Positions 6,840-12,778 of a stretch of DNA of 64,000 nt are shown here, piece after piece; the first letter of the stretch is position 1; each line of letters opens with the position of its first letter. Below the pieces are notes generated by a model that was not told where the DNA came from, ran no database searches, and saw only the letters and a list, made by a program, of their open reading frames with translations. Source of the stretch: Candidatus Thalassarchaeum sp. (GTDB taxonomy: Archaea; Thermoplasmatota; Poseidoniia; Poseidoniales; Thalassarchaeaceae); the NCBI GenBank assembly GCA_022449345.1, contig JAKURL010000005.1, positions 1 through 64,000 of the forward strand, written 5' to 3'. The translations under genes and the position numbers were made by a program.

Positions 6840-8849
6840 ATGCGATGGTCTTCAAGAGCCATCTCGATATGGCTTATGAGCACTCTAATGATTGGTGCTT
6901 CATTCACAGGGTGCCTCGCCGGAGTAGATGAGGACCCAATCTGTGAGGGGATCGATTGTGAAATCGGAGATGGAGAGAGCCCGACTGATGGAAGCGAGGT
7001 CGAACTTGAGGAAGAGGCTCAGGCCACCGTCAACCTCTGGGAGGGAGAGAGCAGATTGTTACTGATTCTCGTCCATCCAACGGATTCTGCACCCAATCTA
7101 ACCTCTACTCAAGCTGAGTCAATCATCAGTGACGTCAACGACTGGTACGTCGAGGTGTCGGGCGGCAAGGGCTGGTTCAGCTGGACTGTTGCGGGGTGGT
7201 ACGCTCTCGATGATGCCGGCTATTCGAAGCAGAACGCCTACCAAGCTGCCGCTGAGGACGGGTATGACCTGACCCAGTATGACCGTTTCGTGGTTGGATT
7301 ACAGGACCTGACTTCGCGGAGCGTGTCCACACAGGGGGTCGAATTCTACAATGTCACGATGGGGGATGACACAGTCCAACTACTCGCATCGCGCTGTGAT
7401 ATCAAGAGATTCGCTGATACCGATAGCACACGAAACACGTTGGCTCACGAACTTGGGCACAGCTTCGGGTTGTCGCACGCGAGGTTCAACGGTAGCATTG
7501 GTGGCGAGGTTGAACCATATGGAAACCAATACGACACCATGGGTTCGTCACCGGCTTGGCGTCATTTCGGTGCTGCCTACAAGCATCAGATGGGCTGGCT
7601 GGATGATGAACAGGTCGAACTCGTCACACATAGTGGAGATTACACTCTGAAGCCTCTCGAAAGTAATCAGGCGCATGCTCTGAGGGTCTCGATTGGGATG
7701 ATTGAGGAGGAGAAGGCTGGTGAGACGATTACTGCCGAGCATTTCTACTATCTTGAGGTTAGAGAGGTACAGGAAATCGATACGTCCGACAAACCTGGAC
7801 AGATGCCAGGGGTGCTCAATGGTGTTATCATCAACCATGCTGGTCCACAGGATCAATACGGATATCACAAGTGGCTCGCCACTGCTCAAGATGCAACTCC
7901 AGAGACGCCAACTAGCACCAGCGGCGATTTCTTTCTACTAGAGGGGCGCACCTTCAGTATCAACGGGTCCGGCATCCACATCACCGCGTTGAATGTCTCC
8001 AACGAAGAGACGAAGGTGCACATCGAAATCGATGATGAATCAACCAATTCTCCTCCAACGATAACAAGTGTCGATGCGACTCCGGTGGGAGATGGTTTCC
8101 TGTTCAGTGTAGACGCGAGCGATGACGATAATGACGACCTCGCCATCTTCTGGAACTTCGAAGCAGGATACAGAGATCTCTACACTCCAGAGCGAATCGG
8201 TTCAGGAACATCTGTCGAGCACACCTTCGCTGACGAGAATGGGCGGAGGGTCTTCGTGCGGGTATCGGACATGCGTGGTGGAGAAACCGTTGGTTGGGTC
8301 GATATCAACGGATATGTGAATCAGGCGCCTCAGATAGAGGCGATTACACCCACTTCGGTTGAGGAGGGTGTGTTTGAATTCCAGATTGAAATCGACGACC
8401 AAGAGTTGTTGACCTATTCCTGGGATCTCGGCGACGGCACGACCTCTAATCTACCAGAGCCGCTGCATGAGTATGCCGAGGATGGAAATTACACAGTCAC
8501 TCTAGTGGTCTCAGATGGGGAGTTCACCGCTACTCTTACCGGCCACGCTGATACGGTTGATACTGAGAACGTACCTCCAGTTCCTGATGCGGGCCCCGAT
8601 GTCTCCGCCGCTCCTGGTGAGTCTGTGATTCTCGATGGGTCAGAGAGTGATGACCCGGATGACTACCCCCTAGCCTTCCTCCGCTACATCTGGTCGTCGC
8701 CCGACGGCATCGACATCTCGAATGCTGACGAACCTATGGCTTCCCTCATTGCGCCGATTGAAGCAGGCACCTACATCATCTATCTGCAGGTGAATGATGG
8801 TGTTGAGAGCAGGAGCGATTCTATGGTTCTCACCGTCACCACCTCCTGA
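6840..8849 (+). CDS. Secreted metzincin metalloprotease lipoprotein with PKD domains
   Basis: 669 residues. The signal peptide ends in FTGC (Cys about 25), giving a lipid anchor, followed by an acidic linker. HELGHSFGLSH at 203-213 is the full HExxHxxGxxH zinc site of metzincins, and YDTMGSS (Met about 234) is the Met-turn. Spacing and the YGNQYDTMG segment resemble gametolysin (M11)-type enzymes. After about residue 400 come Ig-like/PKD repeats, including DLGDGTTSN and a following HEYAEDGNYTVTLVVSDG segment, and a last one beginning PPVPDAGPDV. The role is degradation of extracellular protein, with the PKD region as a stalk or substrate-binding part. ATG at 6840. Next gene is convergent. Confidence 0.88.
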   Translation: MRWSSRAISIWLMSTLMIGASFTGCLAGVDEDPICEGIDCEIGDGESPTDGSEVELEEEAQATVNLWEGESRLLLILVHPTDSAPNLTSTQAESIISDVNDWYVEVSGGKGWFSWTVAGWYALDDAGYSKQNAYQAAAEDGYDLTQYDRFVVGLQDLTSRSVSTQGVEFYNVTMGDDTVQLLASRCDIKRFADTDSTRNTLAHELGHSFGLSHARFNGSIGGEVEPYGNQYDTMGSSPAWRHFGAAYKHQMGWLDDEQVELVTHSGDYTLKPLESNQAHALRVSIGMIEEEKAGETITAEHFYYLEVREVQEIDTSDKPGQMPGVLNGVIINHAGPQDQYGYHKWLATAQDATPETPTSTSGDFFLLEGRTFSINGSGIHITALNVSNEETKVHIEIDDESTNSPPTITSVDATPVGDGFLFSVDASDDDNDDLAIFWNFEAGYRDLYTPERIGSGTSVEHTFADENGRRVFVRVSDMRGGETVGWVDINGYVNQAPQIEAITPTSVEEGVFEFQIEIDDQELLTYSWDLGDGTTSNLPEPLHEYAEDGNYTVTLVVSDGEFTATLTGHADTVDTENVPPVPDAGPDVSAAPGESVILDGSESDDPDDYPLAFLRYIWSSPDGIDISNADEPMASLIAPIEAGTYIIYLQVNDGVESRSDSMVLTVTTS

Positions 8850-8860
8850 TTCAATGTAAT

Positions 8861-9757
8861 TCAACCGAGGCGGCGATTAGTTTCGGCAAGCAATTGATTG
8901 GGTATTTCTGTTCCAATCACCATCCTTTCACCATCGGGGTGATTAAACGAAAGTGATGTTGCATGAAGGCAAAGGCGATTCACACTCGCCTTACCAAAAC
9001 CGTGTCTTGTATCCCCAGCAACAGGACATCCAAGATTCGCCATATGCAATCTAATCTGAGCTCGGCGCCCTGTGTCTATTTTGATGCGGATGAGGCTGTG
9101 GGCTGGTCCTTCTTTTTCGAGCCACCAATTTGTGATCGCTTCTCTACCACCCCTCCTTCCAGCCTCGACCAAGCGTACTCGCTTGTCTTTTGTCTCGAGT
9201 ATTCGCAGGGTTTCGACTCCAGAGGTAGTAGGTGGTTTCCTATGTACTACTGCGTGATAAATTCGCTCTACTGAGCGGTCTTTGAATTGTTTTTGGAGCA
9301 TATCTTTGGTTTCTGCAGAACGCGCGAATATCATACATCCAGATGTCTCTCTATCGAGCCGGTGAACTAGGTGTGTGCGGGTTTTACCATTTTCCCAAGC
9401 CCATTTTGCAACTCGATCATACATCGTATCTACTTCGCCTCTGTCGGTTGCTACCGAAAGAAGACCAGCTGGTTTGTCGGCAAGTATTACCTCTGCATCG
9501 AAAAACAAAACCTCGGGTGTTGGAATTATTTCTTTGGGTTGAGTCAGTGGTTTGTCGCCATCTGCTTTCGAAACTACTTCCACCAACGAGCCTTTTGCCA
9601 CTTGCATGTTTGCCCGAGTTGCCTTCTCTCCATCGACTCTGACTCGTCCATGATCTACCATTCGGCGAAGGGAATTTCGTTTGGCTGAGGGATGAAGGGA
9701 CGCCAGAACCTCAAGGAGGATTGTGTCCTCTGTGGTTTCGACAGCGGGGTCCGGCAT
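8861..9757 (-). CDS. RluA-family RNA pseudouridine synthase with S4 domain
   Basis: 298 residues. Residues about 12-65 form an S4 RNA-binding domain (SLRRMVDHGRVRVDG). HRLDRETSGC at 132-141 is the RluA catalytic motif with Asp about 135, and the C-terminal GRRAQIRLHMANLGCPVAGD segment is also typical. It converts specific uridines in rRNA or tRNA to pseudouridine; which site cannot be told. The RluA type is mainly bacterial, so an old acquisition is likely. ATG at 9757; gene ends 12 bases from the convergent protease gene. Confidence 0.9.
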   Translation of the reverse strand: MPDPAVETTEDTILLEVLASLHPSAKRNSLRRMVDHGRVRVDGEKATRANMQVAKGSLVEVVSKADGDKPLTQPKEIIPTPEVLFFDAEVILADKPAGLLSVATDRGEVDTMYDRVAKWAWENGKTRTHLVHRLDRETSGCMIFARSAETKDMLQKQFKDRSVERIYHAVVHRKPPTTSGVETLRILETKDKRVRLVEAGRRGGREAITNWWLEKEGPAHSLIRIKIDTGRRAQIRLHMANLGCPVAGDTRHGFGKASVNRLCLHATSLSFNHPDGERMVIGTEIPNQLLAETNRRLG

Positions 9758-9793: not shown

Positions 9794-11611
9794 TTATTTC
9801 CACCATTGTAGTACGTCTCGATTAATACCAAATTTTTCTTCCCAAATCTGCCTTGCTGAGGAACGCATATTGAACGGCATAGTCTCCAGCAGATTCGCAA
9901 AAATTAACTCCGCTTGATCCCTAGATTTGCCTTTGTCTTTGGGATCTATTACCGAGATAATTAGATCGATTAATTCGACCAATTCTTCATTGGTATTCGG
10001 CTCTGATTTGTCTAACAACGCCAATGCTAACGAGTCCAATACACCATCAGGATCGAGACTGTTATTTGTCTCGAATTCCATCAAAGCGGCTTTTGTTTGG
10101 GTCCCAAAGTGGCCGTCGACAGCCAAATTGGAATTTGACATTTTATTGAGTAATTCTTGCAGTCTCGAGACGTCCTTACCCCTGTCCCCCTCGTGCAGAA
10201 CCCTAGAGCCTAATTCTCCTGCAAACGGGGGAGGAGGGGAACTATGGGTTCCGAAGAAAATAGCTTGGAGGCAATAATAGGTAGGTGCAAGAGCGACCCA
10301 GCCGACAGCTGGAATTGCAATCCAAGAAAAGGTCCAGTATAGTTCACGACTCCCCATATCATAATTATCTGATATACCCAATGAACCTTCAACCCAAGTG
10401 AGTAAATCAAAAGAGATCAAGGCAAGCATGAACCAGAATGTTGCCATTGGTAACCCCATCAACAACCAACCAGCCATCTCATTCCTGCGCCATTCGGGTG
10501 TGGGGAAAATACTCCACCAAAGAAAGAGGAAAACTAGTAGGAATGGTAGTACCGCTCCGAAATTGGCGATTGGAGTTAGAAGGCCCCACCAAATCTCGCC
10601 ATTTTGGAATTGAGCATCTGGACAATACGCGCACTTCCCAATCCATATTGTGTTCAGGAAATCGAGTGCCCAGACAAAATACGCAAACAAAAACCAAGGA
10701 ATTCCAAACAAGAATGATGTCATGATGGGGAGGAAAAGAGGCGTTTCGGGTACTGGATATAGTGCCTTTTCTTCCTTGGTGAGTTTGTGCCATGGCTTAC
10801 CGATATATGTTGGCGATGAGGATTCTGTTGGCAGCGAAAATGCTTCACGTTTAGGCTCAACAGCGAAATCTTTTCTTTCGTGTAACCTGTATCCGCCATC
10901 TGAGAATACGCGTATGCTCCAATTGCCTTCGGATTGCTCGGGCAATGATGCGTTGTTCACGTCTAAGTCCCTGAGCCATTCCCATTGCTGCTTCTGCTTC
11001 CCAATTTCCTGGTCACTCGAACTTGGGTGATAGATTCCAACCCAGGCATCGTTGCTACTTGGAGGGTTGTTGATTTTGAATCGCACGGGTTTGCCAGGTA
11101 CAGCTTCTAAAATTTCAATGGATTCTCTCTTGGGTGACCTCGATGTAAAATCACTTGGGACTCCATGATCGTCAAGAGTCTTCTTGAACAAGCGGATTGC
11201 TTCCTCGTCGTGTATTTCTGAATTACTGCCCTGATACTCTATCTGGATATCTTCCCAACCGCCAGGCGGCGCGTGGTCGCGGTTCCACTGTGCTGTGCCA
11301 TTCTGCTGCGCACTCAGGTACTTTCCATGACTGGACTTTAGGCACACTACGTCGCTACCGCGGTCCTCGACAGTGAACTCTTCCCAGCCACCTTCTGGTG
11401 CCTCTCTGCGGTTGATCTGTACGCTGCCGTCTGGCTGTGCCGACAGGTACATGCCGTGCACGCCCTTGAGGGTAATCTTGCCGTTGTGCCGCTTTTCTAC
11501 ATGGAAGTGTTCCCAGTCATGAGCTTCGTCGCGGTTCCATTCCGCGCGCCCGTCGGGTTGCGCGCTCAGAAACTTCCCGTGTACACTCCGAAGTGACACA
11601 GTTCCGTGCAT
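9794..11611 (-). CDS. Beta-trefoil (fascin-like) / Ig-like / four-TM / peptidoglycan-binding-like fusion protein
   Basis: 605 residues with a mosaic layout. Residues 1-140 hold three repeats of about 46 residues, each with a VHGKFLSAQPDG-type core (HGKFLSAQ, HGMYLSAQ, HGKYLSAQ), the pattern of fascin/actin-crosslinking beta-trefoils. About 165-258 is an Ig-like sandwich (VRFKINNPP, WVGIYHP). About 290-470 holds four hydrophobic helices. About 478-545 resembles a PG_binding_1 helical domain (GDRGKDVSRLQELL, VDGHFGTQTKAAL). A C-terminal helix ends QWWK. There is no signal peptide, so the trefoil may face the cytoplasm. Archaea lack peptidoglycan, so the last domain must bind something else. ATG at 11611. 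Function unknown. Confidence 0.75.
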   Translation of the reverse strand: MHGTVSLRSVHGKFLSAQPDGRAEWNRDEAHDWEHFHVEKRHNGKITLKGVHGMYLSAQPDGSVQINRREAPEGGWEEFTVEDRGSDVVCLKSSHGKYLSAQQNGTAQWNRDHAPPGGWEDIQIEYQGSNSEIHDEEAIRLFKKTLDDHGVPSDFTSRSPKRESIEILEAVPGKPVRFKINNPPSSNDAWVGIYHPSSSDQEIGKQKQQWEWLRDLDVNNASLPEQSEGNWSIRVFSDGGYRLHERKDFAVEPKREAFSLPTESSSPTYIGKPWHKLTKEEKALYPVPETPLFLPIMTSFLFGIPWFLFAYFVWALDFLNTIWIGKCAYCPDAQFQNGEIWWGLLTPIANFGAVLPFLLVFLFLWWSIFPTPEWRRNEMAGWLLMGLPMATFWFMLALISFDLLTWVEGSLGISDNYDMGSRELYWTFSWIAIPAVGWVALAPTYYCLQAIFFGTHSSPPPPFAGELGSRVLHEGDRGKDVSRLQELLNKMSNSNLAVDGHFGTQTKAALMEFETNNSLDPDGVLDSLALALLDKSEPNTNEELVELIDLIISVIDPKDKGKSRDQAELIFANLLETMPFNMRSSARQIWEEKFGINRDVLQWWK

Positions 11612-11878
11612 GATTAAACGGAAACCAAAGAGAATATGGATGTTGTTAAGATGAAAATCTAAACTGGTTTGACCTCTTTTCCGGTTGTCATGATAAAGTT
11701 CTCAATACAAACAACTTCAATTGATTCGAAATCTAACACCTGTTTTTGATACTTCAAGTATCTCGATAGAGTCAGACACGATTTGGCCAACAATAGATTA
11801 GATAAGGCGTTTGTGTAGGTTAAAAAAACGAGGCCAAGGAGGAGAATTGTTGAAGTCTCGTATCTTACTTCGGTATAC

Positions 11879-12778
11879 ATGAACGCCAAGTATGCTGTTC
11901 TGATTATGAGCGCGCTAATGCTGACTGCCGGGTGTATAGGAGAGACTGGGCCTACGGGTGAGGAGGGCGCTCAAGGTCCTCCTGGTCCCCAAGGGCCGGC
12001 AGGAGAGGAAGGAGCACAGGGGCCGCCAGGCGAGCAAGGTGAGGTAGGACTGATAGGAGAGGAAGGAGCACAGGGGCCACCGGGAGAGCAAGGTGAGCCG
12101 GGGCAAGACGTAAACATGTCTTACATCACTCAACTAGAGGCGGATATCGCAGCCAATGAAGCCACGATTGCGCAACTGGAGCTCGCCCTTGCCAATGCTA
12201 CGTCCTGCCAACTTGTTCCGAGAGGAAATTGTGCAGGGGCTTGGCTATATGGAGCGAATCTTTCTGGTTTGGATTTGACAGGAATAAACCTGCGTGGCGC
12301 ATGGCTCAATAATGCAAATCTGGATGGTGCGGTGTTGCGGAACGCCGATATGAGGGGGGCGATAATGCACTATGCTTCCTTCAGAAATGCCACTATGGAC
12401 TATGTTGAAATGCGCGCCGCACAGGCTGATTATACTGATTTTTCTAACGCTGGCCTTCGATACGCAGACCTTTCTGATGTGAAGAGTGTTTCAGGAAACC
12501 TCTCAAACGCTGATCTTGAACATGCAAATCTGAATGGAATTTGGGCGGTGAGCGTTGATCTTACCCTCGCCAATTTAGAAAATGCCGACCTAACAAGCGC
12601 TATTCTATGGTTAAGTGATCTGTCCAATTCCTCCCTCAGGTATTCGGATCTTAAATTCGCTGAATTACAGACAAGTGTTGTGGAAGATGTTGGAATTGAT
12701 TGGCACGGAGCATATTGTTTTCAAACGATTCGTTCAGGTCCAACGGATGATTGTGAGGAAATATTTGAGGACATTTAG
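11879..12778 (+). CDS. Lipoprotein with collagen-like and pentapeptide repeats
   Basis: 299 residues. The signal peptide ends LTAGC (Cys about 19). Residues about 22-78 are Gly-X-Y triplets ([16 protein letters not shown] and similar, with the unit [14 protein letters not shown] repeated), which can form a collagen triple helix. About 80-108 is a coiled-coil-like segment ([16 protein letters not shown]) that could trimerise it. About 112-280 is a pentapeptide-repeat region with A(D/N)Lxx units ([23 protein letters not shown]), forming a right-handed beta-helix. A surface stalk with a rod-like head is the likely structure; the ligand is unknown. Divergent from the trefoil fusion gene; its stop overlaps the stop of convergent purQ. 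Confidence 0.85.

Follow-up and report, generated by a model that had tools for sequence, protein, structure and literature searches.

A fixed chromosomal slot in a Poseidoniales genus holds shuffled-module membrane proteins, including a CBM92-like trefoil predicted to be cytoplasmic

The 64,000-nt stretch studied here (the window) belongs to a Marine Group II (Poseidoniales) metagenome-assembled genome (MAG) of 1.47 Mb and 93.8% completeness, a placement based on close relatives; genomes and loci compared with it carry G and L labels, respectively. On the reverse strand, positions 9794-11611 hold an open reading frame (ORF) of 605 amino acids (aa), which starts with ATG and has no internal stop. 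The encoded protein is composed of a CBM92-like β-trefoil (aa 1-127; 11231-11611), an Ig/fn3-like β-sandwich module (aa 161-258; 10838-11131), four transmembrane (TM) helices (aa 293-453; 10253-10735), a PG_binding_1 domain (PGBD; Pfam aa 477-532 plus flanks; 10016-10204) and a helical C-terminal region that ends with the aromatic tail LQWWK (9797-9991), all on the reverse strand. A preliminary description had read the trefoil, Ig-like, four-TM and PGBD parts in one chain lacking a signal peptide. The ORF, Pfam and AlphaFold2 confirmed the chain, and no signal peptide is apparent.

In Pfam, PG_binding_1 (PF01471) matches aa 477-532 over nearly the full model (E 5.4e-12, 46.1 bits versus a cut-off of 23), and Fascin (PF06268) matches aa 5-63 in two stretches (E 2.3e-8, 34.6 bits versus a curated cut-off of 23.1). 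The Ig-like domain gives a weak fn3_PAP match (12.5 bits versus a cut-off of 33). Structure prediction, a check suggested in the preliminary description, agreed with its reading: the AlphaFold2 model, built on a 32-sequence alignment of related loci, shows a 12-stranded trefoil at aa 3-126 (pLDDT ~94), a β-sandwich at ~165-251 (~87), helices at 293-323, 339-368, 373-409 and 422-453, and past these three PGBD helices (~73) followed by the helical C-terminus. With a whole-chain pTM of 0.33, the model describes the individual domains rather than their mutual placement. A simple hydropathy scan puts three of the four TM helices above threshold. The domains of the 605-aa chain are thus real.

The gene lies 36 bp from an RluA-type pseudouridine synthase gene (8861-9757, reverse strand; Pfam and neighbourhood comparison), with which it is probably co-transcribed. 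This synthase is a conserved neighbour marking a slot, which within the genus is flanked by the synthase on one side and by selO and/or purQ-purL on the other. The same neighbours are found in G000, G002, G004, G008, G009, G010, G011, G012 and G013, with differing gene content between them. In the window, the usual place of selO, which is missing there, is taken by a gene for a lipoprotein-like protein with collagen-type and pentapeptide repeats (11879-12778, forward strand). A gene for a secreted metalloprotease-like protein (HELGHSFGLSH) with PKD domains is located at 6840-8849 on the forward strand.

A 22-bp element, CAATTGAAGTTGTTTGTATTGA (11702-11723, reverse strand), occurs once, with no base changed, in each of 7 of the 18 genomes of the genus. 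It is found at this slot in all seven carriers, the empty slot of G009 included, with no control matches, and it lies near the selO start wherever selO is present. Because G009 keeps the element without the gene, the element belongs to the slot, and a private promoter of the 605-aa gene is ruled out. It is probably the promoter region of the slot, and genes landing there may use it. A second conserved sequence, AACAACATCCATATTCTC (11630-11647, reverse strand), located about 20-35 bp before the ATG, is a probable TATA-type promoter.

The new finding of this study is that, from one species of the genus to another, a single slot is occupied by differing members of one modular family. This fixed locus with swapped modules is the main feature, and it was not visible to the preliminary description. 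The window slot holds trefoil-Ig-4TM-PGBD. That of G002 (UBA105, L027) holds a Vps62 tail-Ig-4TM-PGBD gene interrupted by a contig end, that of G013 an Ig-4TM-PGBD gene 47% identical to the one in the window, and that of G012 4TM-PGBD alone. Another membrane part occurs in G008 and G011 (both trefoil-GXY-Ig-membrane part-Ig), in G004 (trefoil-C-lectin-Vps62-Ig-membrane part-Ig) and in G010, where a trefoil and Vps62-membrane part-Ig lie on two contigs that both break inside the gene. Thus, the exchange covers modules and even the whole membrane part. The slot is empty in G009, where the synthase and selO genes are divergent and 47 bp apart, and in G006 it spans only ~300 bp, with no ORF of 60 aa. 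In G014, a 4TM-only relative without PGBD lies on the opposite side of the synthase. In two sister-family genomes (L077 and L091), a trefoil gene is again divergent from selO, and other genera have other slots, such as one next to an ABC-F ATPase gene. At that second slot, trefoil/Ig/C-lectin proteins of both families end with SK(F/Y/L)KKK (L037, L099, L102 and L103).

The chain in the window is not a product of chance, because Ig-4TM-PGBD or 4TM-PGBD orthologues are present in G002, G013 and G012; 4TM-PGBD relatives were found in contigs named Ca. Thalassarchaeaceae and Euryarchaeota UBA105. The exact trefoil-to-Ig junction is known from one assembly, and the trefoil-then-Ig order is also found in L083, L091 and L097. 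The data are MAGs, with one genome per species, and several slots lie at contig ends; this coincidence hints at strain variation and limits certainty as well. The exact trefoil-Ig-4TM chain might then be an assembly chimera of related strains, since many module copies end at contig ends and a 294-bp exact tract (see below) could join assembly paths. However, no stop interrupts the reading frame at any junction, the Ig-4TM junction is found independently in G002, the trefoil-helix-Ig order recurs in the three loci above, and other genomes show the general mosaic as well. We therefore consider a chimera very unlikely.

The 294-bp tract (10782-11075, reverse strand; DNA alignment) is identical base for base to G002 and takes in the greater part of the Ig module together with its junction to the 4TM region. 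The DNA flanking the tract is about 65-90% identical; over the shared gene outside it, identity to G002 is about 65-97% per 60-bp block and ~88% overall. An exact tract of this length within ~88% identical DNA indicates recent recombination below the level of the gene. The TM region is closest to that of G013, where stretches of 82 and 90 bp match exactly, and the trefoil is closest to those of other genomes (79-86% protein identity). The host genome carries a single copy each of trefoil, Ig and PGBD, so the sources of these modules are other genomes and not its own paralogues. In a separate observation, L032 (G004) and L084 (G114), which represent two genera, are 97.9% identical over 3.4 kb including the trefoil start; this may reflect transfer or a mis-binned short contig.

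Of 293 Poseidoniales genomes sampled, 34 contain PF06268, and these represent both families. The modules of the family are the trefoil, the Ig-like module, a C-type lectin fold, a Vps62-like module, GXY and an ectodomain-bearing membrane part, and they occur in many orders. The Lectin_C and Vps62 matches in relatives are above the Pfam cut-offs, and the C-lectin module keeps the EPN and WND motifs and has no cysteine. GXY is an unnamed module of ~105 aa (NGNYEF...HENRHWGTIAGHYQHTQNPEIFIAFQDCG) with no Pfam match, found at aa 189-293 of the L031 ORF 6290-8728 and in relatives; it is mostly 86-100% conserved among genomes despite differing contexts. In most membrane members, irrespective of the membrane part, about the final six residues include an aromatic pair, WW or FW (L031, L032, L033, L083, L096, L101 and others), with the variants QWWK, QWWKD, RWWED, AFWE, PFWGND and NFWDNV. 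Of 317 host-genome proteins sampled, just 4 end in this way. This rules out a genome-wide trait and makes the tail a trait of the family; it may serve as a docking tail. As to a viral origin of the modules, pattern scans of IMG/VR gave no relatives of the 4TM core, Ig or trefoil, and phage records gave PG_binding-type matches and one weak match to the 4TM-PGBD region; we rejected this origin. Our literature search returned nothing on these modular membrane proteins.

The trefoil has the CBM92-type motifs WEHF (aa 33-36), WEEF (aa 76-79) and WEDI (aa 119-122), each preceded by NR. The third deviates from WExF in that Trp-Glu is kept and Phe is replaced by Ile. A census of 26 related trefoils found Trp conserved in 21, 26 and 22 and Arg in 21, 25 and 21 at sites α, β and γ, respectively. 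Among natural PDB sequences, 7zoi/7zoh, named CBM92 there, match best; these two solved members (Chitinophaga pinensis CpCBM92A/B) are 29% identical to the trefoil, and in Foldseek they match it with TMt up to 0.90 and 1.4 Å. Foldseek also matches fascin, at 22% identity. CBM92, formerly called "bacterial fascin-like", is a three-repeat β-trefoil in which the Trp-Glu pair of the WExF motif in each repeat forms the glucose site with assistance of Arg; β-1,6-linked or glucose-terminated β-glucans are its ligands, and laminarin and yeast β-glucan are bound (PMC11039641). Within the published set of 164 domains, identity is at least about 37%, and because one of the domains is from Euryarchaeota, an archaeal CBM92 as such is not new (PMC11039641).

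The trefoil of the window resembles CBM92 in its three repeats, its size class (125-150 aa) and the Trp-Glu with adjacent Arg in each repeat. It differs in that its chain is membrane-tethered and predicted to be cytoplasmic, in the third motif and in its lack of an enzyme: Pfam found no glycoside hydrolase or polysaccharide lyase domain in the 605-aa protein or the scanned relatives. It resembles fascin in the fold and in the PF06268 match above the cut-off, but it is one trefoil versus four in tandem and has the Trp-Glu sugar-site motifs, and the 93.8%-complete host genome has no match to the actin family (PF00022) at E ≤ 1. On this negative we rejected an actin partner. Considering the conserved Trp-Glu/Arg motifs, the fold match to CBM92 and the lack of actin, sugar binding appears to be a better reading of the trefoil than actin binding. 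The preliminary description had named both as properties of fascin-type domains, and of the two we favour the sugar part.

Sidedness was assessed in 19 relatives whose predicted TM helices are even in number; since the sequences are related, no nominal P value was used. All 71 recognised modules lie on the side of the N-terminus (71/71). In the flanks, Lys/Arg make up 141 of 755 residues on the module side versus 26 of 656 on the opposite side. In the other membrane type, the ectodomain opposite the modules has four cysteines in every copy. The C-lectin, Ig and PGBD modules have no cysteine, and the trefoil has one. L099 (633 aa) has the same modules with no predicted TM helix and no leader. 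In the 4TM type of the window, the region before TM1 is K-rich and RR lies between TM2 and TM3, and CxxC and acidic loops are opposite; the TM1-TM2 loop, which carries the CAYC cysteines, is predicted to be outside. The charge bias of the window protein itself is modest and in the same direction; it is strong in relatives that have a different membrane part. Because the modules lie where K/R are enriched, across the membrane from the four-Cys ectodomain in proteins that have one, the trefoil, Ig and PGBD of the window protein are predicted to be cytoplasmic. The topology prediction thus agrees with the suggestion in the preliminary description that trefoil and PGBD could share one side of the membrane. 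A cytoplasmic CBM92 is unexpected, because known CBM92 domains are mostly enzyme-linked in polysaccharide-degrading proteins, about half of which have a secretion signal (PMC11039641).

The predicted sidedness bears on two other explanations. One is a surface adhesin or receptor, the outward modules of which bind algal β-glucan (laminarin) for particle attachment or nutrient capture and vary under pressure from viruses or grazers on an exposed protein. Variable slots are typical of surface genes, and Marine Group II archaea are planktonic. The binding of laminarin and yeast β-glucan by CBM92, and its occurrence mostly in polysaccharide-degrading proteins (PMC11039641), also favour an adhesin. 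However, there is no signal peptide, the modules are always placed on the side rich in K/R, away from the four-Cys ectodomain, the C-lectin modules lack any cysteine, and a TM-less, leaderless version exists (L099). An adhesin is accordingly unlikely in our estimate. The other is a link from an actin-like cytoskeleton, a surface sugar layer or a cell wall to the membrane, a proposal that goes back to the cytoskeleton or surface sugar layer suggested in the preliminary description. It agrees with the Pfam Fascin match and the structural match to fascin trefoils, but not with the missing actin family or the single trefoil with CBM92 motifs, and the G014 relative dispenses with a PGBD that is itself predicted to be inside. 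A link to a sugar layer or cell wall is unlikely because the shared module side is predicted to be cytoplasmic, and the proposal as a whole seems hardly tenable. Thus, the preliminary interpretation was borne out in its domains and sidedness and not in its proposed functions.

Archaea lack peptidoglycan. The PGBD resembles usual PG_binding_1 domains in its match across nearly the full model, but it has an archaeal host, is predicted to be cytoplasmic and is dispensable, being absent from the G014 relative. It would be a cytoplasmic binding domain rather than a cell-wall anchor.

The architecture and the locus are well supported, and the function is what we infer from them. Our preferred reading, to which we assign a probability of about 0.4, is that the 605-aa protein may be a membrane-tethered, fast-diversifying cytoplasmic glycan-recognition protein of a shuffled-module Poseidoniales family. 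The three Trp-Glu sites of the trefoil would bind glucose-type glycans, the modules, tethered at the cytoplasmic membrane face, would serve as multivalent arms for recognition, and the TM part would act as the output. The quick exchange of modules would reflect selection for a changing set of ligands, perhaps for intracellular discrimination between self and non-self, such as virus- or damage-associated glycans or glycoproteins. It counts against glycan recognition of this kind that the family protein has no NTPase or nuclease and that the slot sits among housekeeping genes and not in a defence island. Six family members gave no match in PADLOC at E ≤ 0.1, and we rejected a known anti-phage defence protein on this result.

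The same neighbourhood favours a cytoplasmic membrane scaffold for the metabolism of glycans or storage polysaccharides, in which the modules track the sugar set of each species and have no immune role. The conserved sugar-site residues, the predicted cytoplasmic modules and the constant housekeeping neighbours are consistent with a scaffold. However, no glycosyltransferase or hydrolase is linked to it in the slot, and presence/absence and recent recombination are unusual for such a role, so we regard it as rather unlikely.

Polymorphic modular recognition genes at fixed loci are known from defence hotspots and kin recognition. The slot shares with them a fixed site, presence/absence, module exchange and recent recombination, but differs in having no known defence domain, a housekeeping neighbourhood and modules predicted to be inside the cell. 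A more specific form of the glycan-recognition reading is a locus-fixed combinatorial intracellular sensor, similar to innate immunity, in which lectin-type modules recombined between species would signal through a membrane output. We consider this form doubtful, and in the literature searched no such sensor family was described in archaea. Sugar-binding modules are normally studied as parts of secreted enzymes or adhesins, and here CBM92, C-lectin and related modules are predicted to sit at the inner side of the membrane in an archaeal family that is reshuffled at one slot. This raises the question of what inside abundant ocean archaea needs changing glycan-binding arms. Should the answer be recognition of viruses or of self and non-self, the family would add a new kind to the conflict genes of archaea; outward-facing modules would challenge the positive-inside prediction for a large family.

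The Ig/fn3-like module is common to many Poseidoniales proteins, and the 30 listed carrier genomes are all Poseidoniales (390 genomes of the phylum were sampled). The module and its relatives score 12.5-16 bits against the fn3_PAP profile (cut-off 33), and SKICH is matched weakly in relatives. All profile matches are below cut-off and the best Foldseek E is 0.015, so no family was assigned; the likeness to SKICH/fn3_PAP consists of the weak profile resemblance (DAWVGIY...W..L...G.WSIRVFSDGGY) and the β-sandwich model. Distant paralogues in another genus (L039:13452-15506 and L040:8934-11078) have four TM helices, PG_binding_1, an Ig-like module, a long linker and a C-terminal domain, that is, the same parts in a changed order.
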